Origin: Bryoerythrophyllum caledonicum | Lineage: Eukaryota; Streptophyta; Bryopsida; Pottiales; Pottiaceae | Assembly (NCBI GenBank): GCA_963971425.1 | Contig: OZ020520.1 | Span: forward strand, 11,469,807 to 11,533,806 | DNA length: 64,000 nucleotides | Direction: 5' to 3' | Shown here: piece by piece, positions 14,166 through 49,125 of the stretch | Layout of the letters: each line of letters begins with the position of its first letter | How positions within the stretch are numbered: position 1 is the first letter of the stretch | Made by a program: the position numbers and the translations under genes | The notes under the pieces: model-generated | Databases searched by the model: none | Seen by the model: the letters and a program-made list of their open reading frames with translations, nothing else | Told to the model about the DNA's origin: nothing

Positions 14166-15803
14166 GTCAAAGCCCTCAAGGCTGGCCCACTCTACGAGCA
14201 TTTCTAGCAATGATAGAAAAATTGACCTAGAACAGACAATTTACAGGGTCTTAAAATTGTAAGCGGGAAGGATTCTGCGGTGGACGCCTAAGTAAGTTGT
14301 CAATATTCACTGCCCACGATATCCTCTGCTTTCGTTTTCTTTTTTAGCGCTTTGATTTTGCTTGTACCGTCACAGACAAAAGGTTGCTTATATTGCTTGC
14401 ATACTGACAAAGCGGCCCTTGGCTTCCGCATATATAGACAAGAGGCCACGACTTTTGGAGCTAAGCACGGGCAAAATGAGGGCATTGGAAGATGGCTCTT
14501 TATGGCGGGCACCTTTGAGTTTGCAAGGAGCTACGGGTGGTATCCAGAATGTGTAGGCGTTGGTGACAAGTTGCAAACTAGAATCCTGCTTCAGCAAATT
14601 CAAAATTGCCCGTTGAGGGAGCTATTGAGGGAGTTGTTGTGTATGCTCTAACCCTTTAATCCTTTAAGGCCTAATGTACATTTTTGGATTGTTTGGTCAC
14701 ATTGACCTCTGTAGCAAGCGCTACAAGCCACCTCCAAGGAAAATTTTGAATTGTGATTTAGAGATCAAGCAAGATGAACATTTATCGGGACCGGCACCAC
14801 TAAAATCAATGCAAGCATTGGCGAGCTAAAGTAATTTTAATGAAATAGGGTTGTGATGAGATGTATCCGTTGTGTAGATGATGTTTTGGAGAACCTATTA
14901 CAAGCATTAATTCTCCCATGCCTTGTGAGCTCATCCGTTTTCTATCATCCTCGTTGTCAAGTCTTTAATGTCATGCGTAAGGTTCTTCCTATACCAATTA
15001 CTCTATGGAGTTGTCTTTTGCTCATAACATGATTGAAGCTTTCTCGATTCTCCTATGTTGGAGTGTTGCTAAGCGATTCCGTTTAGCTTCCTTGCTCTTT
15101 GTTTGGTTCTTGCTTTGTTCTTTCCATACTAGAAGTCATTGGTTTAGCCTTTGTCTGTGGTTCTTGTTGTGTCTGAGCTTTTTGCCAATTTTGCTTGTGG
15201 CCTTCAGGCTTCTTTGTTAATCCGATTTCATTTTTTATTTATCCTAAATCATGACAATTCAATTCATCACCCTTAAAAGATTAATCCTGATAGGTCGATG
15301 AGCTCCCAAGGCTTGGAAGAATCTACGAGAATAATAGATTATGTAGAACAACATCTACACATCGAATACATTTTATCGCTACCTCACTACACAAAAATCA
15401 TCATAGCTCGCTTACGTTTGCATCAATTTTGGTCGCGCTAGTCTCCGTAGATGCTCATCTTGCTCCACGTCTAAATTTTCCTTAAGTTTTTGTCAAATTT
15501 TCCTCAAATTTTACTTCTTGGTGGCCTGAAGGGCTTTCCACATAGGTTAAAATGCCCAAATGATCCAAAGTTAGTCGCTTGTTCTTAAAGAGTTAAGGGC
15601 AATAGGCCCATAGGTGGTCACTTTTAAAGTAATTTTCAAATAAATTTACCGATAGGTCAACCCTGCATGATCCGCAAACTCTGGAAACTTGCGTAGATTT
15701 GTGCGCGTTCGTTGAGTGCAGTAAGACACTAAGTTGCAATCTGATGGATTTACATGAAAAGAGATTTGGTGTGGGCCTAGCAATATCTCCACCGTATTTC
15801 CAC
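14166..15803. other. Unassigned spacer between elements A and D1
   Basis: Mixed-composition DNA. Frames up to 99 codons exist on both strands at 14.3-14.65 kb but overlap and show no motif I recognise. Confidence 0.4.
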
Positions 15804-16166
15804 TGTCACGGGATTTGGTGTCGAGGACCACACCACATCTCGTGATGTTTGCGTAGGTTAGATTAGTCTAATCTACGTTAGTTTATGTGAGGACATGCGT
15901 TCGGCGCACCGTAGTCATCTCGTGGATGGATTTCATCCACGTAGGGTTGCGGTTGTGTGTATACCGCCGCATACGTCGTTGACTTGACGTCTTTGTCAAG
16001 TCAAGCTTTGTGAGTGAGTTAGTGAGTGTTTAGTGAGTTATTTGCTTGTAAGTGATGGTTTGTCATTAGTAAAGGCTCCGCATTCACTACTTAGTTGCAC
16101 TCGTTGATTCTCCCCTTGTGGAGTGCGTGCCGCTTGACTTCTTGTAGAAAACACATGTATCTTTCA
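15804..16166 (+). repeat. Element D1 5' LTR
   Basis: Begins TGTCACGGGATT and ends near GTATCTTTCA. Matches 27,422-27,769 closely and the two LTR halves of D2 (48,812-49,091 and 41,930-42,046). It contains several perfect or near-perfect stem-loops (see the 3' LTR entry). Confidence 0.85.
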
Positions 16167-16539
16167 CTTGACAAAGACCCTCTCATATCTCTCTTATTTT
16201 CCCACTATTTTTGGAATAAAAAATTTGCACCAAAATGGGAAGAGTAGAGGAAGAGTGGGTTATCAATATTTAGTTTTGAAATGTAACATTTCTTGGAGTT
16301 TTAGCTAAGTATTTAGCTTGGAGTGTAGAGGCTCATGCTCTGGAGAGAGCTCATTTCTCAGCTCTAGAGGTGCTGGAGCTTGTGAGAGAGACCCAAAATT
16401 TCCATCCTCACCTTGTCATCCACGGACACAATTCATCCACTAGATAAGACAACCTGCAAGTTGACTTGGATCATACGGCAAAAGGGACAGTCAAAGGTGA
16501 TGTGAGATGATGGGGGGAGGCGACGATGACGAGGATCCC
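16167..16539 (+). other. Element D1 leader with residual pre-methyltransferase coding sequence
   Basis: About 370 bases. The last ~170 (AHFSALEVLELVRE and following) correspond to the segment just upstream of the methyltransferase in D2, so the gag/protease region has been deleted between about 16.2 and 16.33 kb. Confidence 0.5.
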
Positions 16540-17160
16540 ACGGGCATAGAGGAGGTCGGGCTCAAGGGACACATGTACATCCACGTGGATAGTGGCTTTG
16601 CAGCCAACCGTGCCGCTCACATTACATTCAGCGTCTTCTGGCGCTATATCCACAGCAGTTACCACCTTCTACAATTCGAGGGTGTATTGGCAAGTTGCCA
16701 CGTGATGTGACGTTGATCAGTGAGGATGATCTTCGTTGGTTAGGTCACGTCGACTTGGTGATTGTCGGATGGCCTTGCCAAGGCCATTCACGAGCGGGCA
16801 ATGGACGTGACTTGGATGATCCACGGTCGGGTCTCTTTGCGGATTTGCTCAGGCTCATCGAGTAGTGGATTACCCACCAATCGACGCCACCGGGGTACAT
16901 TTTTGAGAATGTACCCCAATTGGGGGATACACGGACAAAAGTGCGTGAGGGTGGGGCATACATCCATCACCTTCTTGGTCCCCCCACATTTTTTGATGTC
17001 GCGGCGTTGGGCTCTTACGCCCATCGGCCACGTTGGATTTGGACCAACATGGCACCATCGGCGACGCTTACCTTTGCACTTTCTCAAGTGCAACGGCCTG
17101 TGTTTCTCAAGTGCAACGACCCTTGTTTGGATTTGTAGCCTTTGTTTTGCCGTTCAGCGC
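16540..17160 (+). pseudogene. Element D1 DNMT3-like cytosine-5 DNA methyltransferase domain (near-intact core)
   Basis: C5-methyltransferases transfer a methyl group from S-adenosylmethionine to cytosine. From about 16,625 to 17,138 one frame is open except for a TAG at 16,863. In order it has GYIHVD-like MYIHVDSGFAANR (motif II), VDLVIVGWPCQGHSRAG at 16,749 (motif IV with the catalytic Cys in PCQ), DDPRSGLFADLLRL, GYIFENVP at 16,893 (motif VI, ENV), and GSYAHRPRWIWTN at 17,010 (motif VIII). The FxD...AHRxRxxWxN wording resembles DNMT3/DRM de novo enzymes more than DNMT1 or CMT. Motif I is damaged here but readable in D2 (GIGTGLAA). Motif IX-X-like sequence is decayed after 17.1 kb. It lies directly before RT in the same orientation, so it was part of the gag-pol polyprotein. 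Confidence 0.88.
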
Positions 17161-17450
17161 CGTTTGAGTGACCATCCACGCGTGTTGGGGGCAGACTCTG
17201 ATGGTCGGGGGCAGCGGTGGCACATCTCACTGAGATTGAGGAAGCGGAGTTGCTTTTTTGTTTGAAGAGGCATGCAACTGAGGAGCTTCGTGCTCAGCGT
17301 ATCTTTGCAGCCTTGGCCGAGGACTTTGGTTGAGAGGGTGCCTGGGATATCTTTTCCTAGTTTTATCATCACGATACGGGATTTTTTGTGGATCCTGTGA
17401 GTGAGGAGTCTGGGGGCATCAATGCCTTCTATGCTACCAAGTAGCAATTA
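17161..17450 (+). pseudogene. Element D1 methyltransferase-RT linker
   Basis: Translated fragments include EIEEAELLFCLKRHATEEL, then AALAEDFG and VDPVSEESGGINAFY, a charged linker leading into RT. Several frame changes. No fold recognised. Confidence 0.5.
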
Positions 17451-18508
17451 TTGGTCGTGCCGATACGTGGTGAGTCCTCTACGGTGGAGAAGGAGACCAC
17501 AAAGTTTGATGATTGGCCTTTGGATTTGGGGCCACATCTTACCGGTACCGAGGCACGAAGGATACGAGCGTTTATACGTTCATATCATAGTTGTTTTGCC
17601 TTTAGTCTCCATGATTTGGAGGGCTACAAAGGCAAACCAATTCACATCTAGTTGGAAGACGACCACCCAATTTTTCGACGACTTTACAAGCTCAATCTTT
17701 CTCAGAAAAATGGGGTTAAGACTCGTTGTCAGGAGTTGTTGGCCGCCAGCTTGGTTGAGCTCTCTAACGGCGAGTACGCTTGTGCCACGGCCATGCCATC
17801 AAAGAAGGATATCTTTGGCAACTGGATGGAGAAGCGGAAGTGTGGGGATTATAGGCCGGTCAATCGTAAGATCAAGTCAGATCGATATCCCATGCCCACG
17901 CCAGAGGAGTTGTTTGATGCGGTGGGACACACCAAAGTATTTAGCACTCTGGATTTGCAGTCCGGTTACCACCAGTTACCATTGATGGTGGACGACCGAG
18001 TAAAGACCGCGTTCTGAGGAGTTGATCTAGATAAGAGAGATCAACTCTATCATTGCAAGTTTTTTCCATTTGGCCTCAAGAAGGCACCTGTTGAGCTTCA
18101 GAGGGTGATGGACCGGGTGTTGACCGGTTTACCTTTTGCCCAATGCTACATTGATGATGTTATCATTTTTAGTAGCAGCGCATAGGAGCATGTGAGGCAT
18201 CTTCAGGCGGTGTTTGACATGTTACGGCAGTGGGGATTGCGTTTGCACCATGGCAAGTACAAATTCTTCCATGACTAGTTGCCATACTTGGAACATGTGA
18301 TTGTTCCACGAGGTCTTGGCGTGCAGCAGGCGAAGGTTGATGCGCTGCAAAAGAACCCGGCCCCAATTGACGTGTCACAGCTCAGAGCTTTTTTTGGCTT
18401 GGCAAATTATTATCGCCGGTTTGTCAAGAACTTTAGCTCGATTGTCAAGTTGTTGACTATTCTCACGGGAAAGGATCAGCCATGGACTTGGAGACGAAAG
18501 TAGTAGCA
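17451..18508 (+). pseudogene. Element D1 reverse transcriptase
   Basis: Copies element RNA into cDNA. Readable in order: FDDWPLDLGPHLTGTEARR, FIRSYHSCFAFSLHDL, VELSNGEYACATAMPSKKD, CGDYRPVNRKIKSDRYPMP, STLDLQSGYHQLPL, FFPFGLKKAPVELQRVMD and the intact active-site box CYIDDVIIFS at about 18,145. After it come HHGKYKFF and the ELRAFFGLANYYRRFV-type thumb/connection stretch, LRAFFGLANYYRRFVKNFS. The Ty3/gypsy assignment is unambiguous. Five or so in-frame stops (for example at 17,649 and 18,015) and no large deletion. Confidence 0.93.
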
Positions 18509-18519
18509 GGCGTTTGCTA

Positions 18520-19058
18520 CTTTGAAGCTAAAGCTCGGTTCAGAGCCTGTACTGAGGCGTCCAGATGATACACGGCCTTTCCACTTGCACACAGATTGGA
18601 GTGCAGTAGGATTGGAAGCCGTGTTGACTCAGAAGGATGATGGGGGACGAGAGTGTGTTGTGGCGTTTGCTTCTAGGAGCAACAACACTGCGGAGTCCAA
18701 CTATTCGTCTCATGAGGGAGAAGCTTTGGCCGTGGTTTGGGCCATAGCTCATTTTAGGCCTACTTGTACAATGTATGGGCAACGTTTTACCTTGGTGACC
18801 AACCACCAGCCTTTGAAGTGGCTCATGGAGTCAGACAAGCTCACTGGCAAGCTTGCTAGGTGGGCTCTCTTGCTTCAGGAGTACAACTTTGAGGTTGTAC
18901 ACTGGGCGGACATCACTAACTTGGATGCGGATGGGTTATCGCGCAATCCAAGTCCTTCGGAGGAGGATTTGACTGGTGCTAGGTGGCAGGGGGACTGTGA
19001 TAGAGAGGCAGTTCCGGGGTGGCATGCAGCGGCCTATCTCACTTTGATGCCTGCCTGA
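18520..19058 (+). CDS. Element D1 RNase H domain (open for 178 codons)
   Basis: Open frame from ATG 18,522 to the stop at 19,056. LRRPDDTRPFHLHTDWSAVG carries the first catalytic Asp (HTDWS). SHEGEALAVVWAIAHFR carries the catalytic Glu. FTLVTNHQPLKWLM carries the third acidic position, here Asn instead of the usual Asp (family TDHQPL). LARWALLLQEYNFEVVH and ADGLSRNP follow. The Asp-to-Asn change at the third position would be expected to damage catalysis. It is part of the pol polyprotein, not a stand-alone gene. Confidence 0.9.
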
Positions 19059-19059
19059 G

Positions 19060-19495
19060 CGCCGACGTTACCTACTATGGCAGCGGATGAGGAACCAGAC
19101 AAGGCCCGGGTTGTTAGCGACGTGTGGGAAGACGTTTTAGTCTTGCACAAGTTGCAACATGGCATACTTCCGCCCGTTCTTTCGGCTATGAAGCGTGATC
19201 TAGTTGGACACCGGACAACGAGGTTCCGTTGGAAGAACGGCCTTCTATTTCGGTTGTGGCCGGATGGGACTAGGCGCATAGTTCCATGACCGGATCAAAG
19301 GGCTTCGTTGGTACGGCAAGTACACGAAGACCTTGGATATTTTGGCGTGCGGCGGACTCATTCGATGTTGCGCAACCAATATTGGTGGACCGGCATGTAT
19401 CAGCACGTCGCCACGTACGTTTTACGGTGTGAAGTCTGTGATCGGGTCAAATCCAATTTCAACACCTTCTCACCACAATTGCAGCCTTTGCCCAT
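19060..19495 (+). pseudogene. Element D1 integrase N-terminal zinc-binding domain
   Basis: 19,077-19,289 is the linker with VWEDVLVLHKLQHG and FRWKNGLLFRLWPDG. 19,308-19,490 is the H2C2 zinc domain: HEDLGYFGVRRTHSML, NQYWWTGMYQHVATYV and CEVC, with His, His, Cys, Cys all present. The domain ends at LQPLPI, where element C is inserted; the core domain resumes at 25,906. Confidence 0.88.
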
Positions 19496-20020
19496 TGTGG
19501 GAGTCCGTTCCTACACGGTTCCGGAAGTTAATATAAAAATCCGGCAAAAACATAAAAAATTAGTACTAAAAGATTAATAAAATAGATTAATACAGTAGGA
19601 AAGTAGAATCAGCAAATAAGATATATTGGGGGGGGGGTTAATTCCTTAACAGCTCTAACGGAATGCGTAATCCGGAAGGCCGGATACGACCATATTCGGC
19701 AATGACTGGAGCTCTCCGAAGGAAACCAGAATCGGGAGGAAGTTAGGAAGATACCCGGAAGAGGGAACCATCATGATGACGTCTTTGATAGTGACGTCAG
19801 AGCCGTTAGGAAATCTTGTACGTCGTGGGCGTTTAAAAAAGAGGCAACCGACGGGAATCCCCAAACAATTGTCTTTTCGGCTAGTCTTCTTTTCCTCCTT
19901 TCTCTCTTCCTCTCTTCCTTGTCTGTTGTTATCTAAGCCGGTTTCTTTTCAAGCATCCGGTAGTAGCTCGGGAGCTTTTGTGAGGTCAGTGCGTGCAGGA
20001 CGGACTACAGAGTAATCGCC

Positions 20021-21940
20021 ATGGCCGGAGAGCGAGCTGGGAAACAGGGGAGAGTGAAGAGCACCACCACCGGAGTGCCACCCATCGTGAAGGTGATACC
20101 GGAGTACCCGACGGAGGACAAGCATCTTCACGTCTTGTTCCACTTCTTGGATAAGATGGGATGTTCCGATCTGATGGAGGCGGTATGGGGAACGAAGGAC
20201 GAGAGAATCGTGACGGAGTTGATCGGCACTCCCGACAACCAGTATGACGGAAGCCTTCGAGCTCACTTGGAGAAGTGGACCCACTTGGAGTGGAAGCGGA
20301 CCTACGGCTTCCAGGACGGAGATGTCAAGATAGCGGAGCGAAAAGACGACCTCGTGGACGGGGAGTTCGACCGGCCTGCTGACCCGAAGGAGGGCTACAC
20401 GATACATGACCAAACCGACCCACAGGCCCAGATCGTGATAGGGTTTCTAAACCCTATCTTCCACCCGGAGAAGCCCAAGCGTATGGTGCTGGAATGGGCT
20501 ACCACCTTCTTAGGAGCAATGCGGGGAAGATCACCCTAGACTGGACATCTCTCATGCACGACCTGGTGGAGAGATTGGTCAAGAGCCTCTACCGGAACCG
20601 GAAGGTTGGATCACCCCTTCCGGCCCACCTGACGCATCTCTACTTCCGGCAGGAGCTGTTGAAGCCGGAGAAGCACGATGAATACGAAGAACTTCTGACT
20701 ATTTAGACGTACGGAGGGATGGAGACCGACTCGGAGGAGGAAGAAGATACGGAGCCACCTCCGGTGGAAACGCCTCCGATGCGGAAGCGGAGTCGCTCGG
20801 TGCAACCGGAACCGGCACCAGTGGGATCTCCACCCACCCGGATGGACACAGCCAGTGAAGATCCGGATGCTACGGGATCTTCGAAGCGACCGGAACGATG
20901 CCTGACTCCGGACCTTTCGGTACTCACCGGAAGACATCATGGAGCTGCTCTAGCATGTAGCATAGAGAGCCACATGGATCAATCAACACCTCAACGACAG
21001 CACCTCCATGTTATACGAAATCATGGGGGAGCTCTGGGTCGAGGATGTTGAGGAGATCATGCTACAGTTGAAGAACCTCCGAGAGACCTACTTCCGACTA
21101 CAAGCGGTGGAAGAGCAACATTGATCAATCCTCCAAGCCAGGACAAAACTGCAATAGGACCTCGCGAAAGCAAATGCAGCATTGATAGAAGCTCAAGCAG
21201 CCTGGAAGGCAGCGGAAGACAAGGTTGCCGCATCAATTCAAGCACTCGTTGAAGTCCAGGAGGAGCTGAGTTTTCCGGTTGACATAGTCAACCACAACCT
21301 CCTCTTCAACGAGCGCTAAGAGAAGGAAGGTAAGGTGAACTGAGGCCATATCATCCGGTTCCTTATGGATTACGCACGGAAGAAGAAGACGTGGAAGCAG
21401 ATGCAACTAGTGGCTAGCACCGTCATCCGGGAGGAACTAACAATGTCTATCTCCACCATTGACCTCAACTCGTCTCCGGATGCAGCCAGACCTTCAAGGC
21501 AAGCATAGGAATCTTCCTGAAAAGGTAAGGCCTAGGACACACCTGATGCAGCTTCTTCTGGGACATGTAGCAAGGCTCCTCCCAATAGCCTAGAGACGGC
21601 CAAGAAGACCCCCCTTTCTTCAGCTCTGTTTCAGGGGACTCCTCCCGCCTTCCAAATACCACTTTCTCCCCCTTCCTCCAACCGCCGGAAGGCGACTTCT
21701 CCACTATTCAGGGGCCATCCGGACGTAGCCACCAGTCCCAAGACCGCGGTGGGAACCTCCACCAGCACGGCGGAGAAGGCCACTTAGGCGGCACCCTCAG
21801 CTGACCAACCGGAGCCAGAAACCCCAGCTTCCGGAAGCTGACCAGTACCGGATCCAACTCTGGAGAAGACCGGCGGCAAGAGCAGAGAGTGGGAGCATCT
21901 CCGATGCGCAGGAATGGACGGAACAAGAAGACCCCTTAGT
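20021..21940 (+). pseudogene. Element C gag-like protein with acidic, coiled-coil and Pro/Ser-rich tail
   Basis: Starts MAGERAGKQGR at 20,021 and is open to 20,539. A frameshift near 20,517 moves it into the frame running to 20,706. One stop later it continues with METDSEEEEDTEPPPVETP (20,719 on). The domain at about 20,430-20,690 (VIGFLNPIFHPEKP, then DWTSLMHDLVERL, then HLTHLYFRQELL) is homologous to the element B protein, and both are followed by an acidic EEEED stretch. Around 21,050-21,300 a heptad-like helical stretch (VEEIMLQLKNLRE, then AKANAALIEAQAAWKAAEDK) suggests a coiled coil. 21.5-21.93 kb is Pro/Ser/Lys-rich. A gag-type structural role is inferred. No zinc knuckle seen. Confidence 0.6.
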
Positions 21941-22679
21941 TAGGTTTCGGATCAAAGTTGAATAGTTTCGGTTGCTAGGGTTTTTGTAGCAACTAACGAT
22001 GGGGCTCATGATTGCACCCAGCTACCAACCCATCGGTTAACCAAAAACTAAAATTGTTGACCGGCGGAAAATCCGGATCTGAGATCTATAATTTTCGGAT
22101 CTCAGGTTTGAAATTCCGGATCTTTAGGGATAAGATTTTCTTTAGGATAGGATTTTCCAGATTACACGCAGATTAGGTAATACTATGATTAGGAAACTTA
22201 GCTAGTATTTAGTGAAATGAGTTCTCTCAACTCATTATCTTGTTTTTCCTTACGTTGAATATATTTCGGATCTATTACTAGAATTTCTACCTAATTCGTG
22301 TGACGAGAATTATTATCTTTGTGAGGTACAGGATCCGTTGTTGTAGTACTTGCTGTGGAAATTTCTTTTGAAGGGAGTGGTACTTGACTTTACTTGAGAG
22401 TGAGCCGGTTGAGATCTACATCGAGAGAACGCTCGGAAGAGCTAGAGGTGTATTCCAGAGGTGTTCCTGGTAACCTCCAGGGTCCGGAAGAAGCCAGGAA
22501 GGGAAGAGATGTATTGCTCAGGTGTTTCTCGTAATCTCTAGGGCACGATGTCGAGTAGCGAGAGTTTTCTTTGGGAAATCGCGGAGATACTAGCTGCTGC
22601 TAGAAATGGTTTGAGAACAAAGGTTGTCTCCAAATAAATCTCTAGTCTCGACCACCAATTCCTCTTGTCTTCAAGTCTT
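21941..22679 (+). other. Element C non-coding middle region
   Basis: AT-rich with scattered TCCGGATC words. No ORF or RNA gene recognised. Confidence 0.5.
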
Positions 22680-22735
22680 TAGTCTTCATTCTTCAGTCTT
22701 CATTCTTCATTCTTCAATCTTCAATCTTCAAACTC
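22660..22735 (+). repeat. 7-bp AGTCTTC/ATTCTTC microsatellite
   Basis: About ten degenerate copies of RNTCTTC in tandem at the start of repeat R. The complementary GAAGACT run is at 52,590-52,630 in the second copy. Confidence 0.8.
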
Positions 22736-25060
22736 TTCTCCGTTGGCCTATCCTGTGGTGGTTGTAAAGGGTTAAGGGTAAGGGTAGGTGATAAGAAACC
22801 ACGGCCTCGGACGGGTAAAACGGGACGGCCAAACCACGAGCTGACCGTCCGAAAGATTGGCTCCTAAACTTCAAACCCACGGTGACCAGCAATCGCGCCT
22901 CACCGGTGGGAACAACATAAACACGACCGTGTGGGCCATTAACCCCACTTCGCCGCAACAAAGTTTACGAAGCAGAATTGAAAAACAACTAGCCTCCAAA
23001 ACCGGCTAGGAATAACGAATAAAGACAACGAGCCTCCAAAGCCGGCTAGGAATAACAAAGCCACAAGCCACAACACGCGAGTCTTCTAGTCTTCTTATCT
23101 TCAAGTCTTGAAGTATTCAAAAACACAAAAGACCTCCCAAAGTTCTTTTCCACACTAGCTGCGAGCTTCCGATTGATGCCACAGATGGTTCGAACCGCCA
23201 AATGCCAAGTGCTATAACTTTTTGGAAAGCTGGTGCAATAAGCTAATACCCTCCAAAATCTCAGGTTATTCTAAACTACCTTCTAAAAGTTATAGAGGTT
23301 CAAAGTTTGTGCCTTCTTATGTCGATGGCAGCAAACCCTCTCCAACTTCGGCGGCTATAACTTCTATACTACGATTCTAAATGAGCCGTATAATAGCTTT
23401 ATAGAAAGATAATTTAATAAGCTACAACTTCTCTAAATTTCACTTCAAACTAACCTACTCACTAAAAGTTGTGTAAGCTTAAAACTCACGCCTCTCCACT
23501 TCCAAGACGGTAGAACTCTCCTCTACTTAGATGGCTATAACTTTTTCATAGCGCATTTAAATCAGTCGAGTGATGGCTTCTTAGAAAGCTAATACAATGA
23601 GGTATGCTTTTCTTAAATTTCAAGTCTAAACACAAAGTATCAAAGCCGTGGTGAAGGCCCGAAGTTGCTGCTCCTCTAGTTGGGTAGCGGCCAACCACTC
23701 CTCACTCAATCTCTCATAACTTTTGCGTATGAACTCCAAATTGAACAAAAACACCGCTCAAAGAAGCGCAACTTCACAAGGAACAACTTCACAAAATTTC
23801 ATATTATTTTCCTGAAAAACGAGTACACACCGCCCGATCTCCTTCTCGGGAATTTTCTCACAGCACTCCTCACTCACCAAAAACACACACACTAGGAAGA
23901 AAGGAGAGTCGCCCCCCCTTATCCTTCCACATCAGCCCATGTCTAAGCCACATGGGCATCTAAAGCCTATTGGTTAACCTCCTAAAGCGCTCTAAAGTCT
24001 ATCAAGATAAGATAGGAAAGAAACCCCAACCATTGGGCTTCAAAAGGTATGGTTCCCAAAAGAATTCTAAGACGGTCAAACTTTTTCTTAGTTTCTTTCC
24101 TTTTTCTTTCTTGGATCTTGATCTTATATAAACATAAACACATAACAAACTCCTATATTAACAACTAAATGGATTCTACCTTCATCTAATCGTATAAAAA
24201 CTCTAGAATTTTACGAAGCACCACAGAAGCATAACTTGCTCTCCGTTCATCGCTTAAAAAGGTCAGCGGCCCTCGAAGCCAAAGACGGTGGCCCATCTCA
24301 TTAGAAAAGCGACTCACCATTTGGCCTTCATTGGTATTTTCTAAACACCCTTCAAACACCATCTGACGGCCACCCGTCAATGAAGCTTCAGCCTCCAATA
24401 CAATCACTAGAGCTCTCGCGTCCGGTTGAAGATTCACAAATGCAAGTTGCCGTAGACTTGGATCTGGACGTGGTTGAACACGACGCCCGGAAGGCCCCGC
24501 TTCATCTCGCACTTGCCGTCTGGAAGTTGATGGCTGAGAAGATTGAAACGGATTCTCCGGTAATTGCGATAACGACAACTCCCACTCATCTGGGTCTTGA
24601 GAATCCATACTATCAACTCTAAGCTATCCAAACTATTGGCTTGAAGCAAATCATGTGAGGCAAAGAAATTATCTTCCTTTTTATCTCTCAGTAACTTCTT
24701 TAAGAAGCTTGCTTTCACTGAATTACTCAAATAGCCATAAATAATTCTATTTAAACTAAAAGTAGCCCGCATCAAAAGATCTGACTAAAGGACAAGGTCG
24801 CGACATTGTACAGTCCCTCAACAGTTGTATAAAGCCGCCTTGAGTCCACTAATGGTCGCCAAGTTGTGGACTTGGTTGGCTGTCAAGGTCCGTTGATTGT
24901 TGCCTGCCGGTTCCGGGTTCGAGGTTTATCAAACTCGTTGAACGGCCTGGATAGTTGCAACTTGGTACTTGCTAGTGAAAGCAGGAAATAAGCAGCCAAC
25001 CGGCCACCTACGCTTCCCTGAGCTACAGTGACAAGATGCAGGCTTCCAACTTACGATAAC
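22680..25060 (+). repeat. Dispersed repeat R, copy 1 (nested in element C)
   Basis: Reverse-complement homologue of 50,955-52,640. Shared landmarks in order: an (AGTCTTC)n-like microsatellite (about 22,660-22,735), GTTGGCCTATCCTGTGGTGG, the block around CACGACCGTGTGGGC, a degenerate series of ATAACTTTT-containing units (23.2-23.9 kb), and a tRNA-like block at 24.84-25.0 kb (GGACTTGGTTGGCTG, then CCGGGTTCGAG). Copy 1 carries an extra ~600 bases (about 24.17-24.78 kb) containing a minus-strand ORF. The element class is uncertain: no TIR, LTR or RT seen. Confidence 0.7.
24186..24608 (-). CDS. Hypothetical ORF, 140 codons, inside repeat R copy 1
   Basis: Starts MDSQDPDEWELSLSQLPEN at 24,608 and stops at 24,186. 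The N-terminal third is Ser/Pro/Arg-rich (STSRRQVRDEAGPSGRR). The rest looks globular, with ALVIVLEAEASLTGGRQMVF, RFSNEMGHRLWLRGPL and SVVLRKILEFLYD. A different frame just upstream (24,775-24,600) also reads like protein, so the original coding region may have been longer and frameshifted or spliced. It is present only in this copy of R, which suggests a captured fragment of another gene. Function not recognised. Confidence 0.4.
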   Translation of the reverse strand: MDSQDPDEWELSLSQLPENPFQSSQPSTSRRQVRDEAGPSGRRVQPRPDPSLRQLAFVNLQPDARALVIVLEAEASLTGGRQMVFEGCLENTNEGQMVSRFSNEMGHRLWLRGPLTFLSDERRASYASVVLRKILEFLYD

Positions 25061-25900
25061 AAGCTCCGGTTATCCCCCATTGAACCAAACCGTGGATTTC
25101 TCCACGACCCCAACCTTTTGTATCCTTCTCCTCATATTCTATCCGTTGTCTAAAGCAACATCTTTAATATTTTCACACAATATATTAATTTACAACGCGA
25201 CAACGGAAGAATCCGGTCAAGGCCGGAGGTTACCCCCACGATAGGAAAAAGCCTGTTATGTAAGTCTAGAAGGAGTCCTCTCCAGTAAACTCTGCCACTT
25301 TCTCCGGAAAATTATAACAATGCTATTGTGAGGTCGTTGTAGTCCGGACTTGTCTTTGTGTGACCGCGTCCGGAAGACCATCCGGATGTTGTAAAAGTCT
25401 AAGTCTAGCAACAACAATCAAATTACTGGTTAGCAAAGTAGGGAGAGTGGTGTCCGGTCACTATAAGTTCCAGAGCAGTGGGTGTTTAGCCACTTAAAGT
25501 CACAAGGCAGTGAGGAATCCGGCCACTTACACAAAACATGATCAGTGGCCTTCCGGTCACTCATTTAAACCTTCCAGAAGCCTCTTTGAGGAGGAACAGA
25601 GATAAATCAAACTACCCTCTTGTTGTCCAGAAACTAGATCCGAAAAACTACTGTATTCCTTCCGGAAACTAGTTCCGGAAAGCATTGTATGAATTCCGGA
25701 ATCCGGAAGTTATCCGAAAGGATCCGGATCCGGAAGTAAATAGAATAGCTAGCCTAAGTAATTGATAGTTTAATTGATATTGGATATTGTGAAAAGATCA
25801 ATAGATCTCTGTGGGAACAAAACCGGAGTGGTTTACTTTGGAAGCGTTTAGTGACGACTTAGTGCATTCCGGAGGAATACTGACTCTACGAACTGCAACA
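25061..25900 (+). other. Element C 3' region, non-coding
   Basis: Rich in CCGGA words and short inverted repeats (GATCCGGATCC). No ORF of note. Ends at the C terminus CTGCAACA. Confidence 0.5.
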
Positions 25901-25905
25901 CTCAT

Positions 25906-26750
25906 CATGGGTTTGGGCTACCGTTGGTCTTTGGAATTTGCCAAGCCGCTTGTTGTTACCCCACTTAGAGCCAAATACGTGTTGGTAATGGTGGAGCACT
26001 TCAGCAAGTGGATTGAGCTTGTGGTACTACCATAGAACTCCTCGGAGTTGGCGGCCATGGCATTCCTTGATCGGATGATGGCTTGTTTTGGAGCCCTAGC
26101 TGAGGTGTTGACTGACTCATCAAGGGCGTAAGTTCATTGGTGCTTTCAAGGCTTTGTGTACCAAAGCTTTGATTGACCACCATACCACTTCTCGGGATCA
26201 TCCAGAAGCGGACGGTTTGGCGGAGCGTGTGGTTTAGACCGTCAAGCATGGACTACAGAAATATGGATTACTTCAGGGTGGCCACCGTGATTGTGATCTG
26301 ACGATACTATGGGAGACGGATTTAGCCAGCAAGCCTCTTTGATCGCTTTCAGTCCGTATCAGTTGTTGTACAGACGGGAGCCAATTTTACCCAGTTCTGT
26401 ATGGGAGAAGTTGGCCCCTGTTGTGGACTTGGATGATCTAGAGGTCTAGATCCAGTGTTCGCGTCATTGGGCGGAGTTCTTCAAGGAGGCCATGCCAATG
26501 GCCATTGAAAATTTATCCATCGCTCAGCATCACGACACGTTATGGTACGCTCGCAATTGCAATGGCGCTTACCGACCTCAGTTGCGGCGTTTCTCCACTA
26601 GAAATTACGTTTATTTGCAGTGTGAGGCGCCTACGTTGTTGGACGTCAAGGCTCGGCATACCATTTTTGCGTGAAGGATGTGTTGCCTAGTGGCATCTTG
26701 TTGTTGGAAGGCAAAGATGGCTAGGAGTGTCGGGAGCACTCCAAAAACTG
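25906..26750 (+). pseudogene. Element D1 integrase core and C-terminal domain
   Basis: Resumes with MGLGYRWSLEFAKPLVV, where the first catalytic Asp of the D,D-35-E triad is Glu (family pattern WSLDFAGPL). AEVLTDSSRA at about 26,105 keeps the second Asp. After a frame change, HPEADGLAERVV at about 26,200 keeps the catalytic Glu. SLIAFSPYQLLYRREPILP and the C-terminal NGAYRPQLRRFSTRNYVYLQ, then LLDVKARHTIF follow. So the fold is readable, but one catalytic residue is altered and there are several stops and shifts. Confidence 0.88.
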
Positions 26751-27000
26751 TGCTCCCTGTGATTTACACATTGGTGGCTCCGTTCATCCGGAGTTGGCGG
26801 TTGTGTCCGAAGGCCTTCCGTGTTTTGTGTGTGGAGAGAATAAGGGCGCGGCTACCATGTTGCTTTGTGACCATTGCCAGCGTAAATGGCATATGGCTTG
26901 CCTGACGCCGCCTCTTTCTACTCTAATGTCCGGGGATTGGACTTGCCCTCGTTGTAGAAGGTTTTCGAGCCACGTTTCATCAGATGAAACAATTTGATTT
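26751..27000 (+). CDS. Element D1 C-terminal PHD finger
   Basis: Open frame 26,794-26,997 (and frame-continuous upstream: CAPCDLHIGGSVHPELAVV) encodes a complete C4HC3 PHD finger: CFVC at 26,821, then CDHC, HMAC and CPRC, with all eight zinc ligands present and the WH...C spacing typical of the fold (KWHMACLTPPL, GDWTCPRC). PHD fingers usually read histone H3 tails. Here it follows integrase, where many gypsy elements carry a chromodomain, so a role in choosing integration sites or binding chromatin is plausible but unproven. The upstream part joins to the integrase C-terminus after one frameshift. Confidence 0.88.
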
Positions 27001-27314
27001 TTTCTTAGACATGTCACTGGTATGGTGTCCTGCCATCGAGTTGGAGTTCCTGGTTTTGTTTCAGGGATAGGCTACATGGGGATTGACTAAAGGATTGGCA
27101 ACAAAGTTGTCTAAGGCGATTAAGGATGGGGCTCACATTGCACTCTGCCCACCCTCTCTTAGTTACTTCTCTATTGGTTTATTGATGCGGCAAGGAATTA
27201 CATCTTCGACTGGATGCGTACAATTGTTGCAGCGGTTTCACCGTGGCGATTGTCTACATAGTGTTGTTTCGTCCTAGCCAGATAGAGGGTCTCTTTATTC
27301 GCTAGGGGGGGCAC
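27001..27314 (+). pseudogene. Element D1 pol C-terminal tail and polypurine tract
   Basis: Weakly coding tail after the PHD finger (MSLVWCPAIELEFLVLF, then GLATKLSKAIKDGAHIALC) with stops and no named domain. It ends in a purine run, CTAGGGGGGGCA, at 27,302-27,313, which may be the polypurine tract. Confidence 0.45.
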
Positions 27315-27873
27315 TTGAGGGTGTACTATGTATACTTGTTTTAGTGTATGTTTTTTGTTTATTTGATGTTGGTTGTGATTCTCAATCTGTTGTGTTTAGC
27401 GATCTTTGTTTACACGACAGCTGTCACGAGATGTGGCGTTGAGGACCACACCACATCTCGTGGTGTTAGCGTAGGTTAGATTAGTCTAATCTACGTTAGT
27501 TTATGTGAGGACGTGCGTCCGGCGCACCGCAGTCATTTGGTGGATGGATTTCATCCACGTAGGGTTGCGGTTGTGTATATACCGCCGCATACGTCGTTGA
27601 CTTGACGTCTTTGTCAAGTCAAGCTTTGTGAGTGAGTTAATGAGTGTTTAGTGAGTTATTTGTTTGTCATTAGTAAAGGCTCCGCATACACGTTTTAGTT
27701 GCACTCGCTGATTCTCCCCTTGTGGAGTGCGTGCCGCTTGACTTCTTGTGGAAAACACATGTATCTTTCCTTGAGGGTGTACTACATTTTTTTTTTATTG
27801 TATGTTTTTCGTTTACTTGATGTTGGTTGTGATTCTCAATGTGTTGTGTTTAGCAATCTTTGTTTACACGACA
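27315..27873 (+). repeat. ~106-bp direct repeat flanking the 3' LTR
   Basis: TTGAGGGTGTACTA... occurs at 27,315-27,420 and again at 27,771-27,873, with both copies ending ...TTGTTTACACGACA. The 3' LTR core lies between them. The simplest reading is that the LTR really begins at 27,316 and a partial second LTR follows in tandem. The alternative is a segmental duplication. Confidence 0.7.
27422..27769 (+). repeat. Element D1 3' LTR core with serial stem-loops
   Basis: Matches the 5' LTR. It contains a perfect 12-bp stem (CACGAGATGTGG at 27,425 paired with 27,451-27,462), a 17-base palindrome TAGATTAGTCTAATCTA at 27,477, a GTGGATG/CATCCAC hairpin near 27,540, and a perfect 10-bp stem TTGACTTGAC/GTCAAGTCAA at 27,597-27,622. 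Confidence 0.85.
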
Positions 27874-30800
27874 CCACGTAAAAAACTTTCTTCCGCTTTG
27901 ACGTTGTTAACTATTTGTAGGTAGGTCATCCGCATGCGATATGTGTGGACAAGTATTTGCAACCAATCCAAGGGATCATGCATTGGATAATCAACGCTTT
28001 AGGAGAAAGGTGTATATGTCACGTACAAATACGTTTTTGTTTTTAAAGGAATAAGTGTAGGAAGTCTACATATTTTCATTGTTTTCTCTTCTCTTTCCTA
28101 TCTTCCTTTCTCTTTCTTAAGATAGAATTGTCATGAACTATTAAGGAAAGTTATATCCTACCTAAGGGTCAAATTTGGCTACACCAATTAATTATTTATT
28201 TCTATAACTAGATGTTCAGCAAATTGGATATTCTCAAAAATTCATTCTCTCACCAAGTGAAGAATAAAATCTTAAAAGATAATTCCCGAAAATTTTGGAA
28301 GATACAATAATACAATTTTTTTGTTGAATTAGATCCCTTGAATACGGTAGTCATGGATAGATGTGGTGGATTAACATCCACGGATTCCAAATCAACACCC
28401 ACCAATTCCGAATCAACATCACAGAGTCCAAATCAACATCCACCAAGTCCAAATCACGTCATTTCATATAAAAAAGGAACATGTAGATAATCAAATTACC
28501 ATTTTGTGCAAGGATATTATGTGGTTTTGGAATCATGAATCTTATAATGTTTATCTACCTAAATCAAATTGATTAATTTTAAATATAGTAGAATATAAAT
28601 CTATTGGTCCGTGTTTGTTATTGGTCCTTGTTTGTTATTGGTCCCTAGACCATTCAAAGAACAAAAACCGCAAAGGTGTACCCACATGTTACATTGAATT
28701 ACTAAACTCAAATATATTCTAAATTCAGGTTGGATAAAAGCACACTAGGGTGTAACACTTTTGGGCAAAAACGGAAAGTTAAATAAAACCTCCAAACAAA
28801 AATTACATTTTGGTTGGTTGTTGGTAGAAGTTAACTTGATTTCATTTGTAGGTCTAGTTTTTTTGTTATTTTATTCCTTCTACAAAAGGAATTTCTTAGG
28901 AACGTTAAACTTGAAAAGAGGGACATTGAGACACTAAAAATTCCTAATTTTGAATTTTGAATTATTTCAAAAATGAAAGAATTAAACAAAATTATACATG
29001 TATGTACAATCTTCTTAATTTAATCTTCCAATCAACAAAAGTGCAAAAACAATTATTTTTTATTTTTATGGAATTCCCCATTTTTTTAGTGATTTTAGTG
29101 AATGAAACCAAATATTGATTACAAATGGCAAATTTCCCTTCGATCCTAAGATCCATTAGTAATGTCAATCATTCCTCCATATTCAATAATGTAGTTTTCT
29201 TCATTGATGTACCCTTAAAATAAATAAGTAGTGTTTTTTTCCTATTTTGTGACACTATGGCACCAAAAGTGGTACATCCTAGTGTGTTTTCACCCGGTTC
29301 CATGTTGATTAATGGCCTCTATAACATAAAATGATAATACACTGCAGAATGTATCAACACTGTTCATTTCAGAATGGAAATCAAGAACTTCCGTAGAATC
29401 TAGTTCTTGGTTGACCAATGTTCCTAATGATATGAAAGGACAAGAAACCTCAATATTGGAGAGATGATTACATTCCACTCTCTAATTTAATAACATTTGG
29501 GTATCTTCTGGATGACCTAGGTTTTGAGATCACGAGGTATCTAATTGCTTTTTGTTATATGTAGATATATAAAAGATATAGATATAGATATATATGTATA
29601 TCTGTAGATACATATATAATTTTTTATCTAACATGCTAAAGTATAGTCATTATAAATGATTATACTTCCTTAAATTACTCAAAAAATTAGTTAAAATGGT
29701 GTTAATCAAAGATTTTAATACTACATCAACTCATTCTAAAATTAGATATTGATTATTGATTTTAAGGTAGATCAATGATTCTTATTCATATTTACTACAA
29801 TATACTTGAATGGAGATACATATTGGTTGTGAGCCCCTTATGGCTGATTACAATGATCTTTATCAAACTACTACAACTATAATTACACAAATTCCTATAT
29901 CATTGAAAAAATCTATTTTTTTAGTTTTTTTATTATTGGTGATAATTTTTTAAACATTGCTGAAATAACTTTTCAAATAAATGATCAAATAAAATCTTAG
30001 ATATAATAAAAAAACCTTGATAAACTTTTGAAAAAAATAAAAGATAGGTCAAGACTCATTTAAAAATATTTCAGTGGATTAAAATCACAAATTTCTAAGG
30101 TGGTTTTAAAAAAATCTTACGTTTCTAAATTTTTGAAGACTTTCTTAAAAGGAACTTACTTATTCACAACCACCTTCAAAAATTCTATAAATGAAACAAT
30201 ATTCTCTATGAATTGAAATTGTCTTAGATTTGACCTTCTTTGATTATATACAATTAAAAATAAAACGATTGAAAGGAGTTTTTTTTTTAGAATTAAGTTT
30301 TCTAAGAGAATAATAATTTCTAGTCTATCAATTTTGTAAATGACATACCTTCTTAGAGTTTTGAAAAATATCTCATTAAAAAATTCACTAATATTTTAAA
30401 TAACCAAATCTCTTGAAATTGTGCCCAATATAAAATTTAGATTAATTTAATCATTTAAAGATTTTTTATAAATGTGATTTAGTAGCTTCTTGTAGTCTCA
30501 ATCCATATAATTTACATCAAATGATGTCTAAATCATTTAATTAGAAGAAAATACATGTGACCAATTTAAAATGGTCAACTAGTCGGTTAAAAGTATTGGT
30601 ATAGAAAGTAAGGTACAATAAATAATTTCCTTGAATACGCTAACAAATGCCTTCTTTCTGTACATAGTTTCTCAAGAACACTTCAAGGAGGAGAGAGGAA
30701 TGAAGTGTAAGTGAGCTCTGACTTTGTAGGTCAAGGTGAGAAAGAAGTTAGTCATCGGAGTGAACCTTAGGGTTATCAGAGGCGGCTTGGACTTGGTTTG

Positions 30801-36105: not shown

Positions 36106-37535
36106 ATGGACTACATATCACAAGAAATTAAAACAACAAAACAAAACTATCAAGTTGATAATACAAATAATTACAACAATACAAACAAAATAAAAAACAT
36201 AATATCCATTACTCGAACTACATATTGTAAGCCATTTATGCCACTAAAAATCCCCTTACACAAGTACACAAATATGAACACACAAAATGTATCCACAAGG
36301 ATTCTACAAATCCAAAACATACAAAACTCATTATTCAAAACTAAAAGAAAAACACAAATACAACGTAAAAATAATAAACAATATAATAATAAAATTACGA
36401 AAATTTCATTTGCTACAAAAAAAACTAACAATTGATTACTACTACTAATATGAGGAAACATTGAAATAAACTCTAGGTCTATATCTATTATATTAAAAAT
36501 GCACCCCTCAACACATAAAAAAATAGAGAATGCTACAATGTATTCTATTCCAAACACCAATAGTATCAATAAACAACTAAAAAACAAAATAACAAATGTA
36601 TTAGCCACACAAAAAAAATTCCATTGCACACTTCTACTAATCCTTGGTGGAGATATAGAAATAAACTTGGCCCCATGCCAAACATAGTAAAAACACACCT
36701 CGCAAACCACAAAAAAGAGCAAAAATGTACTTTATCCCAAGTACTATAAAGCTCCACCTCAAATATCAACACATCTCTAACACATTTGCGCCCCTCTTAA
36801 AAACACTCACACACTACACAACGCTTGCAACAACTCATACTCGCATATTGCCCATTACATTCAGCACAATAATACACCCCCCCATGACACATACTATATG
36901 CCTTAATAATCACTATTCACCTACTCTAGAAGAATGTAACCACCTCTTATTACCACAGTACTCCGGTATAACACCATGGACTAACATTCTTCTGAACAAA
37001 CTAACGGCCCTCCATATTCCACCGGCACATTAACACATATCACCTATTTACAAAATTCATTGAAGAGAACCAAGACATTATACACCACAAAGATTCAATA
37101 CATGAAAATTTATACGACTTCATCTATAACCAAAATCCACCTCCAACACAAAACCTAATACAACAACACTTCCCATTTCTTCCCGATGAACTAATCAAAG
37201 AAACTTCAAGGTGCTTTGATACTACAACCAAATACACACCCGCCTTGACCACTTCCATACATCCTCCCTTGAAATTAGAACACAAACACATTAAACAACG
37301 ATGACACATGTATTCCTACATGGAATGCCCTATCCCTCAACATTGCCCTTCCATGCATTCAGAACCTTGCCACATACAAATATACCTCCAACCATAATGT
37401 GCATCCTAGAAATCAAACTTACAGCCACAAAGTCTACAAAATACATACAACGAATTTTTCCCAACTATAAACTTATTTTTCACAATATCCATATATTCAC
37501 CAGTTGTATACAACAATGCCGTCCATACACGTCGT
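36106..37535 (+). pseudogene. LINE 5' fragment: ORF start with 2A-like motif and AP-endonuclease beginning
   Basis: AC-rich plus-strand coding remnants. 36,499-36,687 ends with LLLILGGDIEINLAP, similar to the N-terminal GDxExNPGP (2A-like) motifs found in several non-LTR retrotransposons. 36,725-37,033 continues YFIPSTIKLHLKYQH, then LEECNHLLLPQYSG. 37,301-37,537 has PPTIMCILEIKLTATKSTKY, which fits the LQETKL-type motif of an apurinic-like endonuclease domain. It stops at about 37,535, where gypsy copy D2 begins. RT and C-terminal parts of what is probably the same LINE copy lie at 48,245-45,016 (minus) and 59,393-60,708 (plus). Confidence 0.6.
36634..36675 (+). other. 2A-like peptide motif in LINE 5' ORF
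   Basis: Codes LLILGGDIEINLAP. The canonical ribosome-skipping core is D(V/I)ExNPGP; here NPGP has become NLAP, so skipping activity should be lost in this copy. Confidence 0.55.
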
Positions 37536-37539
37536 GATG

Positions 37540-38515
37540 GTGACGCAAACAGCGGTGAATGGCAAAAAATGGCCACAAATCCAAACAATAGTGTTGAATT
37601 CAATGGCTTGAGCCTTGATCCAACAAATAACAACGTTAGCCCCTAGAGGAATGTGCTGCGGCGGTGGTGCCTGTCAAAAAGCCCATTGCCCGCTGCCTTT
37701 CATTGGCAGAAGGCTCCTCGTAAGTTTGGGAAGTAGATTTCCAAACCATACCCAGACAGCGTGTCCTAAAGACAAAGGATCCCGGGTAGCACATCAACAT
37801 GGAAAATGCCCCTCGAGAAAAAATCAACACGGTTCACCACTGCCAATGGTGGCTCATCATCCTTAGTAACCTCCGTCGAAATACAAAGGTCGTCCAAGAT
37901 GTCATTGACCTCACGGCTCTCGGGCCATTGCACTTGAGCAAGTATAGAAGTGAGCGTTGTCAATAATGCCATGTTGGTCTAAATCCAACGTGGCTGATGG
38001 TTGTAAGATCCCAACGCCGCAGCATCTACAAACGTGGAGGGACCAAGAAGGTGATGGATGTCTGCCCCATCCTCACGCACCTCTGTGTATCCCTTAATGG
38101 GAGTACATTCTCAAAAATGTACCTTGGTGGCGTCGATTGGTGGGTAATCCACCACTAGATAAGCTTGAGCAAATCCGCAAAGAGACCTAACCGTGGATCA
38201 TCCAAGCCAAGTCCACTCCCCGCCCGTGAATGGTCTTGGCAAGGCCATCCGGCAATTACCAAGTCCACGTGACCTAACCGGCGCAGATCATCTTCACTGA
38301 TTAACGTCACATCACGTGGCAACTTCTCAAAACATCCCTAGATAGCAGAAGACGGTAACTGCTTCGAATACAACGCTCGAAGACGCTGAATGTGATGTGA
38401 GTGGCACGGTTGGCTGCAAAGCCACTATCCACGTGGATGTACCTGCGTCCCTTGAGCCCGGCTTCCAACATAGCCGCAAGCCCTGTACCGATATCAGTAA
38501 ATACCTCCACATGGA
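37540..38515 (-). pseudogene. Element D2 DNMT3-like cytosine-5 methyltransferase (frameshifted, all motifs traceable)
   Basis: Gives parts missing from D1. Motif I reads DIGTGLAAMLEAGLKGRRYI (38,510-38,455), followed by HVDSGFAANRA. Motif IV is VDLVIAGWPCQDHSRA (about 38,262-38,215) with the catalytic Cys kept. Motif VI is RYIFENVL (about 38,125-38,100). Motif VIII is badly decayed near 38.0 kb. After it come VNDILDDLC, DDEPPLAVVNRV and, at about 37,715-37,660, EPSANERQRAMGFLTGTT, which matches the RERxxGF wording of motif IX; a decayed LLDQ...W segment may be motif X. The order I-IV-VI-VIII-IX with a short recognition region fits DNMT3/DRM-type enzymes. Many stops: inactive. Confidence 0.85.
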
Positions 38516-39448
38516 TAATACCATCATCCGGTGGTCGACACTAAAAAGTGCGAGCCAACAACGGAGTGGGAGAACTCAGTGAGAGATGTGGAGCATCTAG
38601 AGCATCCACAAGCTCTCAACTGCAACGAGTAAGCTCCAACTGAGTCCCTCATGGAGGAAGTGGATCCTAGCAATGACGTGCAGAGATCTCCAGTATCAGT
38701 GCTCCTGTGATTCCGTTGCCCCCGGCATAAAAGCACATGTCTCCTCCAAAAGCGTAGAACCACATGTCAGATCGGATGCCTCTCATACTCTAGATCCAAT
38801 GCCTTACTCTCCGTCATCGTTTACCAAACGTACCACCTTGAAACGCACACTACGTCGCTTACATGCAATGGTCAGACAAATAAGCCACCCAGAGATCAAG
38901 GACTAATCTCCGAAGGACTGCTCCATAGGTGTGGAAGTGGCATTGGCCTCAAACGCGGAAATAGCCTCCGCTGCCAACTTGGCCCACATTGCCACCAAAT
39001 CTTCGTCAGTGGGTGGAGCTGTCACTACCTGTGACACCTCCAATGATGGCATGGGCATCTTAACCTCCAACATACTACTCTCCAAGTGGAATACACCGAA
39101 TGGTTGAAAATCCGGAGTTTGGAAGTCCACACCGGCAAAGACTGGCAACTGCAATACCTTATACGCCAAGGTGTGTGCGGCATTTCCACGACTAGAAGAA
39201 ACCGCTGGACCGGAATCGGAGTGGGAGCGGCAGTAGAAGTAGCCGCATCCGCGATGCTAAACAAGAGAGGTTGCCGCGGCTTACCAATGTGGTCTGGCAA
39301 ACCCGCCTGGCGTGGACGGCCACTGGTAACCGGCACAAAAGGGTGAAGATGCCACTGCCTATGCAGTTGTTTGAGCATGAGCGGCAACCGCTACTACCAC
39401 CTCCCCTAAAACGCCATACAAGTAGCAATCTAGGGCTGAAGATGAAAT
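38516..39448 (-). pseudogene. Element D2 gag-methyltransferase interval
   Basis: Minus-strand stretch 39,169-38,903 is open (YKVLQLPVFAGVDFQTPDFQ, MPSLEVSQVV, DEDLVAMWAKLAAEAISAFE) and looks like former polyprotein. The expected protease should be here, but I could not find a convincing DTGA motif. Confidence 0.5.
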
Positions 39449-49091: not shown

Positions 49092-49125
49092 CACTAGTAC
49101 ACAATAAGAAATCCGTGTTTTTTGT
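49092..49125 (+). repeat. CACTA terminal inverted repeat
   Basis: CACTAGTACACAATAAG followed by AAATCCGTGTTTTTTG. The other end (42,044 on) begins ACTAGTATC and shares a downstream ATAAAAAACC/ATGTTTTTGG stretch. Imperfect, but of CACTA type. Confidence 0.55.

Follow-up and report, generated by a model that had tools for sequence, protein, structure and literature searches.

A DNMT3-type methyltransferase domain in the gag-protease frame of a moss Ty3/Gypsy-type retrotransposon family with split repeats

A stretch of 64,000 nucleotides from the moss Bryoerythrophyllum caledonicum (assembly GCA_963971425.1, contig OZ020520.1, positions 11,469,807 to 11,533,806 of the forward strand; hereafter the window) was found to contain one Ty3/Gypsy-type element at 15804-27873, lying between identical 4-bp target-site duplications (TSDs), CCAC, at 15800-15803 and 27874-27877. 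A preliminary description of the window had reported cytosine methyltransferase motifs IV, VI and VIII in one frame with a single stop, upstream of a Gypsy reverse transcriptase (RT) on the same strand. The three motifs were seen at that place (16767-16799, 16896-16916 and 17019-17048; the stop is a UAG at 16863-16865) within a decayed DNMT3-like domain at 16551-17102, and the profile search proposed at the time identified this piece as a C-5 cytosine methylase (Pfam PF00145, 44.6 bits against a cut-off of 22 bits, E = 1.6e-11). The frame continues into the RT (17655-18323, with three in-frame stops; PF00078, RVT_1, E = 3.7e-24), RNase H (18507-18965; PF17917, E = 4.5e-34) and the zinc-binding part of the integrase (19080-19502; PF17921, Integrase_H2C2, E = 1.6e-17), and a UAG CAA UUA, a readthrough-type context, stands between the gag-DNMT and RT frames at 17442-17450. 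An unrelated nested element, foreign to the DNMT element, occupies 19502-25902 (the alignment to genomic copy L020 stops at 19501 and resumes at 25903). It is followed, in other frames, by the integrase core (25907-26116; rve, DDE type, PF00665, under cut-off at E = 9.8e-6 and over it at 9e-14 in L020) and, at the C-terminus of the polyprotein, by a PHD finger (26737-26994; PF00628, E = 1.5e-11). The suggested pairing of the methyltransferase with a PHD finger was thus borne out, the finger also scoring over cut-off in genomic copies L020 and L011.

The domain had also been placed inside a pair of long terminal repeats (LTRs). The unit is bounded by repeats and by CCAC, as that placement implies, but a plain LTR pair is ruled out, as the left end is one repeat (A), the right end another (B), and the repeats are split in the order A-coding-B-gc-A-B, where gc is a GC pair. 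Repeat A1 (R-U5-like, 15804-16165) begins with TGTC, its start being placed by the TSD, and is 90.8% identical to A2 (27422-27769) over 369 columns, gaps included; B1 (the outer part of U3, 27314-27419) ends in GACA and is 89.6% identical to B2 (27770-27873), whose own GACA is the right end of the element. The B1/A2 joint forms the palindrome GACA-GC-TGTC (27416-27425), the GC pair of which is missing at the ends of the element. A polypurine-tract-like run is seen in the sequence just before B1 (27304-27313), while a candidate primer-binding site adjoins A1 (16166-16178) and is the perfect 13-nt reverse complement of a candidate self-primer within A (15989-16001). With the exception of the TSDs and the nested element, to which no strand was assigned, these features lie on the forward strand.

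The window copy is dead. Deletions of approximately 2.9 kb and 315 bp have removed gag, protease and motif I, and motifs IX-X, respectively; the motif I side of the methyltransferase is truncated and in another frame (with a frameshift near 16680), and stops and the foreign insertion add to the damage. Its DNMT region is 89.6% and 91.9% identical in DNA to genomic copies L020 and L019. A second decayed copy of the family was found on the reverse strand at 37527-41491 (gag side 41491-38809, DNMT side 38780-37527), which is 79-85% identical to L019/L020 and 85% to the first copy and in which no RT was matched, and a fragment of a third A repeat (74.6% to A1) lies on the forward strand at 48804-49093.

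The PF00145 profile, run against the genome assembly (437 Mb, 894 contigs), scored 123 matches among 1054 candidates; one of these, L001, is a bacterial-type dcm and was excluded, and the remaining 122 may include host genes. An open frame of at least 1300 amino acids was present in 20 of the 123 rows, and all 22 loci opened (L003-L024) carry the coding region of the DNMT element. Intact copies, which the preliminary description had recommended seeking, do exist: both frames are whole in six (L009, L011, L012, L013, L018 and L020) of the 16 copies fetched as 10-kb stretches. These have an ORF1 (open reading frame 1) of 1353-1371 amino acids, one stop, and then an ORF2 of 1041-1047 amino acids in the same frame, in the domain order gag-protease-DNMT, UAG, RT-RNaseH-integrase-PHD. 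In both L020 and L011 the DNMT, RVT_1, RNase H, H2C2, rve and PHD domains scored over the Pfam cut-offs and the aspartyl protease under; L011 alone also matched a zinc knuckle, over its cut-off, and Retrotrans_gag, under it. Pfam scans of these two copies (E <= 0.01) detected no tyrosine recombinase domain in either frame; an element of that kind is ruled out, the integrase being of the H2C2/rve type. A chromodomain gave no match in the Pfam scans of the window, L020 and L011, the C-terminal place being occupied by the PHD finger; the best 60 of 109 PDB matches to this finger include PHF12, CHD4, KDM5B, PHF21A, UHRF1 and AIRE, several of which read unmodified H3K4. Two subfamilies were distinguished, I (L009, L011) and II (L019-L021 and the window), which share only 37-38% of ORF1 residues. 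Judged by its sequence, the window element belongs to a moss Ty3/Gypsy-type family that was active recently and has a DNMT3-type domain as a regular component of its gag-protease frame; the window copy itself has decayed.

The preliminary description had assigned the domain to the DNMT3/DRM branch; the first half of this assignment stood, while the second did not. Among the PDB matches listed, 29 DNMT3 sequences outrank all other sequences (best E = 1.3e-14), plant DRM lies far below them with partial matches (E = 9e-4, or absent, in other searches), and neither DNMT1 nor CMT occurs. The best 50 of 1597 Foldseek rows are all DNMT3 entries, although the mean pLDDT (predicted local distance difference test) score of the query model is only 60.9, and falls below 50 at residues 225-294, in the C-terminal third. 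The motif order, by eye, is I-IV-VI-VIII-IX/X and unpermuted in L009, L011 and L020; motif I reads FAGIG or FGGIG in family copies, and the PCQ, ENV and HRPR motifs are retained in the three copies compared. A DRM or CMT origin is ruled out by the unpermuted order together with the PDB and Foldseek rankings, and a DNMT3-type domain, for which de novo DNA methylation activity would be predicted, is supported.

The methyltransferase is under purifying selection. The ratio of non-synonymous to synonymous substitution rates (dN/dS) for DNMT in four pairs of copies was 0.15, 0.19, 0.04 (at a dS of 1.7, near saturation) and 0.09, compared to 0.00, 0.02 and 0.11 for the RT in three pairs and 0.07-0.61 for the gag region in five; the L009-L018 pair has zero synonymous changes in DNMT, and comparisons between subfamilies are saturated.

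An A match was found upstream in eight of the ten copies for which the upstream part was fetched (L013 and L015 had none), and in those eight the two A repeats and the two B repeats are each 98.6-100% alike over the compared stretch (in L018, 72 nt of A only). Inserted copies start with TGTC and end with GACA, the inner B1/A2 joint being GACA-GC-TGTC, and a 4-bp target duplication was observed in all 16 insertions with both ends found (window included; C847, C851 and C872 are the same insertion and were counted once). In none of these 16 was the methyltransferase domain found outside the repeat-bounded unit; the domain, or its place judged by distance, is inside. The insertions take the form A-coding-(B-gc-A)n-B, with n = 1 in 13 of 16 (ten by sequence, three by distance), n = 0 (A-coding-B) in L023 and C2:5990 (the latter by distance) and n = 3 in L017. 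Behind this last copy, from L017 to L066 (C9:22325820-22327617) and within the same 4-bp duplication, tandem B-A units of approximately 599 bp each were observed. Genome counts for subfamily II, allowing up to 3 mismatches, gave 346 inner joints, 68 A2/B2 joints and 1108 A starts, with 0 for the reversed-pattern controls; as the sites differ in variability, the ratios of these counts cannot be taken as ratios of copies. C1-C4 carry 38 exact joints. An exact A start was located 9.0-13.4 kb upstream of 13 of them; no joint had one downstream or within 300-800 bp, and for the remaining 25 none of these ranges contained an exact A start.

Between the two frames, UAG CAA CCA or UAG CAA UCA is present in 20 of 21 readable genome loci, a count which is to be read with caution as 15 of these UAG loci (15/15) were chosen because the first frame ends there. 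The window has UAG CAA UUA, and L067, a piece of the family described below, has UAG CAA UCA. The tobacco mosaic virus (TMV) type of readthrough context is UAG followed by CAR-YYA, and these sites fit it. The first methionine of ORF2 is residue 24 in one copy but residue 82 and residue 117 in two others, which have no early methionine, and the database relatives P0070, P0071 and P0080 are predicted single polyproteins spanning DNMT and RT.

Directly after A1 the sequence is ACTTGACAAAGAC in subfamily II and ACTTGAGAAAGAT in subfamily I. An exact reverse complement (13/13 nt) of this primer site occurs inside A in each of the seven loci compared, namely the window and six genome loci, of which one has only a partial A, and 0 of 1000 shuffles of A reached that length for each locus. 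L067 has a third variant in which the compensating pair is retained. RNA folding paired the primer site with the site in A in one copy of each subfamily, and a purine run just before B1 is present in the five copies shown, from both subfamilies. The covarying 13-nt complement is a candidate self-primer.

Taken as a whole, these observations are probably best explained by a moss Gypsy-type family with a Gag-level DNMT, UAG readthrough, self-priming and an integrase cut internal to the LTR. Readthrough of the UAG would yield much Gag-protease-DNMT and little Gag-Pol, so that the methyltransferase would be packed into particles at Gag level. By analogy with Tf1, the 5' end of the RNA would prime reverse transcription. 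Since the primer-binding site borders A and the polypurine tract borders B, the LTR of the complementary DNA (cDNA) would, by the usual rules, be B-gc-A, and the integrated ends would hence lie inside the LTR, which is the most peculiar feature of the family. Two such LTRs would become fused, A against B, in the manner of a two-LTR circle. The DDE integrase would then cut the GACA-GC-TGTC palindrome in the LTR adjoining the coding region, drop the GC and insert with a 4-bp stagger. It is the 4-bp duplications at LTR-internal ends which point to a DDE integrase cutting this palindrome, probably in circular cDNA. Opened at the palindrome, a two-LTR circle would yield A-coding-B-A-B, and a circle with a single LTR would yield the n = 0 form. 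The least certain steps are that the packed DNMT may methylate the cDNA or circle, such that new copies arrive methylated, and that the PHD finger may tether integration to nucleosomes.

A number of observations weigh against this explanation, in addition to the way in which most UAG loci were chosen. Only five of eight further loci have the UAG, L016 having CAG and L002 and L015 no readable site, and six of the 22 insertions examined are without both ends (L013, L015, L016, C1:57135 and C1:4159, sought unsuccessfully, and L022, whose left end was not sought). The observed/expected CpG ratio is 0.50-0.51 only in L011 and L013 and 0.78-0.80 in the four other copies measured; the depletion expected from self-methylation is therefore clear in those two only. 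The related enzyme of the KnitGypsy-Dnmt3 element of the green alga Klebsormidium nitens showed no activity in yeast (PMC5890265), an assay which is judged inconclusive because human DNMT3B also failed in it (PMC5890265). Finally, a two-LTR circle predicts equal cutting of both joints and only one joint order was seen; the circle model does not explain the missing second order.

The single order is more readily accommodated if A-coding-B-A-B is made directly by an unusual reverse transcription, as a linear product with permuted ends and no circle cut, the n = 0 and n = 3 forms arising by later recombination between repeats. We regard this as possible but rather doubtful, as a primer-binding site next to A and a purine run next to B are the arrangement of ordinary LTR elements, in which the cDNA would end at these points, and we know of no template jump that restores the GACA/TGTC ends. 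The most specific form of the preferred explanation is itself tentative, and we would not expect it to hold in every part: that the DDE integrase, instead of using the ends of linear cDNA, acts in the manner of a tyrosine-recombinase element and cuts the LTR-internal palindrome of circular cDNA, and does so in a particle whose Gag-level DNMT methylates the cDNA before integration. The circle-junction route of retroviral integration was once proposed and then discarded; were this form true, it would be revived in a living land-plant lineage and its algal relatives.

The purpose of the enzyme may alternatively be directed at the host or at the element itself, the DNMT silencing new insertions and taming copy number or marking host chromatin. 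The purifying selection fits any useful role, and both the host-marking and the self-limiting ideas were raised by the 2018 authors (PMC5890265); however, a DNMT in the gag frame, within a particle that would hold the RT, points to cDNA rather than host as its target, and we consider these roles unlikely. It is more improbable still that the domain folds yet lacks activity and serves only to bind nucleic acid within the gag-frame protein; the FAGIG/FGGIG form of motif I and the poorly modelled C-terminal third would agree with this, while the conserved PCQ, ENV and HRPR motifs and the purifying selection argue against it. A chance association of a stray methylase with an RT, owing to the many repeats of the window or to mis-assembly, might be suspected from the broken and nested window copy but deserves practically no credence, being refuted by the same order of DNMT, UAG and RT in the six whole copies of 16, by the fused DNMT-RT proteins of other plants and by the TSD-bounded unit.

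A domain search (best 7991 candidates scored) gave 52 related proteins, those named to species coming from Marchantia polymorpha, Closterium sp. NIES-53/54 and Sphagnum fallax; the matches of the domain searches included none labelled as K. nitens. Database proteins from other plants likewise join DNMT and RT. The DNMT and RT trees concur on the main groups as judged by eye, with subfamily I placed beside Marchantia (98/89) and separate from subfamily II of the window. Ten of the 52 proteins, including that of Sphagnum, were omitted from the DNMT tree for short coverage, the RT tree has 16 rows and one Marchantia protein only, and the branches of the outgroup and P0098 are long. In a separate clade (P0078, P0081, P0084, P0089, P0091 and P0093) the DNMT follows the RT rather than preceding it, and the domain appears from these sequences to have moved within the polyprotein.

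The window gave nothing in Rfam and tRNA scans, and scans of viral contigs gave no relative. Part of the nested element (22696-23313) resembles 51982-52631, which lies on the opposite strand (88.6% identity across 333 columns), and the long frames at 56698-58337 and 44745-47862 resemble a CACTA-type transposase and a long interspersed nuclear element (LINE), respectively. In the wider assembly, the excluded locus L001 (C14:16014858-16018817, on a 22-Mb contig) has a full bacterial-type dcm and, by eye, an insertion sequence (IS)-like transposase frame, and either was transferred or is foreign DNA that entered the assembly. The rbcL gene was found on three small contigs, with two different moss-type rbcL-accD stretches (L035 on C821 against L036/L037 on C590 and C894), whose AccD sequences are 92.6% identical. 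AccD of one type is 96% identical to an entry named for the moss Timmiella anomala, the representative of a cluster of 236 sequences, and the next entry, at 86%, is named for Sphagnum; AccD of the second type is 92.6% identical to that Timmiella entry. On the assumption that plastid and nuclear contigs belong together, these genes point to a Bryopsida moss, and together with the 437-Mb assembly they rule out K. nitens as the host. Given the 7% divergence in AccD between the plastid types, the assembly may include a second moss. L067 (CADCWO010000201.1), on a contig of a cyanobacterial metagenome-assembled genome, is a piece of the family and 94% alike in DNMT; this genome thus seems to hold plant DNA. 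In L067 the A repeat is followed by the primer-binding site rather than by B, an order that a one-LTR circle or a collapsed assembly would produce.

Cytosine methylation is the means by which plants silence retrotransposons, and an element which keeps a methyltransferase under purifying selection runs counter to a simple host-versus-element picture. The published Gypsy case is confined to a single alga; with its hundreds of copies or remnants, intact and young ones among them, a moss genome would make the question testable, and the relatives in Marchantia polymorpha, a genetic model, would permit experiments. Target duplications on DIRS-type repeats also raise the question of how a DDE integrase picks its ends.

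The preliminary description had stated that retrotransposon-borne methyltransferases were known from a charophyte and dinoflagellates, correctly so (PMC5890265), which limits the novelty. De Mendoza et al. 2018 (PMC5890265) reported a Dnmt3 in the K. nitens Gypsy element KnitGypsy-Dnmt3, with DIRS-like repeats and purifying selection, and stated that copies are fewer in K. nitens than in Symbiodinium. A paper from 2025 (PMC12344493) restates the occurrence of DNMT3 in retrotransposons of streptophytes and dinoflagellates. As KnitGypsy-Dnmt3 is published, capture of a DNMT by a Gypsy element is not new. Like the moss family, it has a Dnmt3 domain in the Gypsy coding region, the Gypsy domain set, DIRS-like repeats and purifying selection on the DNMT. 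The two differ, as compared by description, in the place of the domain, which is in the Pol polyprotein ORF of KnitGypsy-Dnmt3 and in the gag-protease frame before the UAG in the moss. In the main text on KnitGypsy-Dnmt3 (PMC5890265) the words 'PHD' and 'readthrough' never occur and 'TSD' occurs once, for a LINE. The portions of the open-licence literature available gave no report of a DNMT-carrying Gypsy element for mosses or liverworts, nor of TSDs or a PHD finger for KnitGypsy-Dnmt3. Apparently unreported there are thus the bryophyte hosts, the DNMT before a conserved UAG, the PHD finger, the covarying 13-nt self-primer and the 4-bp duplications at LTR-internal ends.

SymbioDIRS-Dnmt3 of Symbiodinium (PMC5890265) shares the Dnmt3 domain and the A-coding-B-A-B repeats with the moss family but has a tyrosine recombinase, in place of which the moss family has a DDE integrase and 4-bp target duplications. 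Self-priming is predicted for the plant Tcn1 and TAR elements (PMC6317226), and in these and in Tf1/Tj1 of fission yeasts (PMC4600332, PMC6317226) the primer site is, like the candidate site of the moss family, complementary to a nearby region of the repeat that would lie at the RNA 5' end; the moss family differs from all of them in its PHD finger, the lack of a chromodomain match, the DNMT and the permuted repeats. Split direct repeats in the order A-coding-B-A-B are common to DIRS/PAT/Ngaro elements and the moss family. The former have a tyrosine recombinase and are not known to make target duplications, whereas the latter has the H2C2/rve integrase and 4-bp duplications. With Ty3/Gypsy elements it shares the gag-PR-RT-RH-INT order (protease, RT, RNase H, integrase), H2C2/rve, TG...CA ends and a TSD of 4-6 bp (4 bp in the moss), but not identical LTRs at both ends, and where chromoviruses carry a C-terminal chromodomain the moss family carries its PHD finger.
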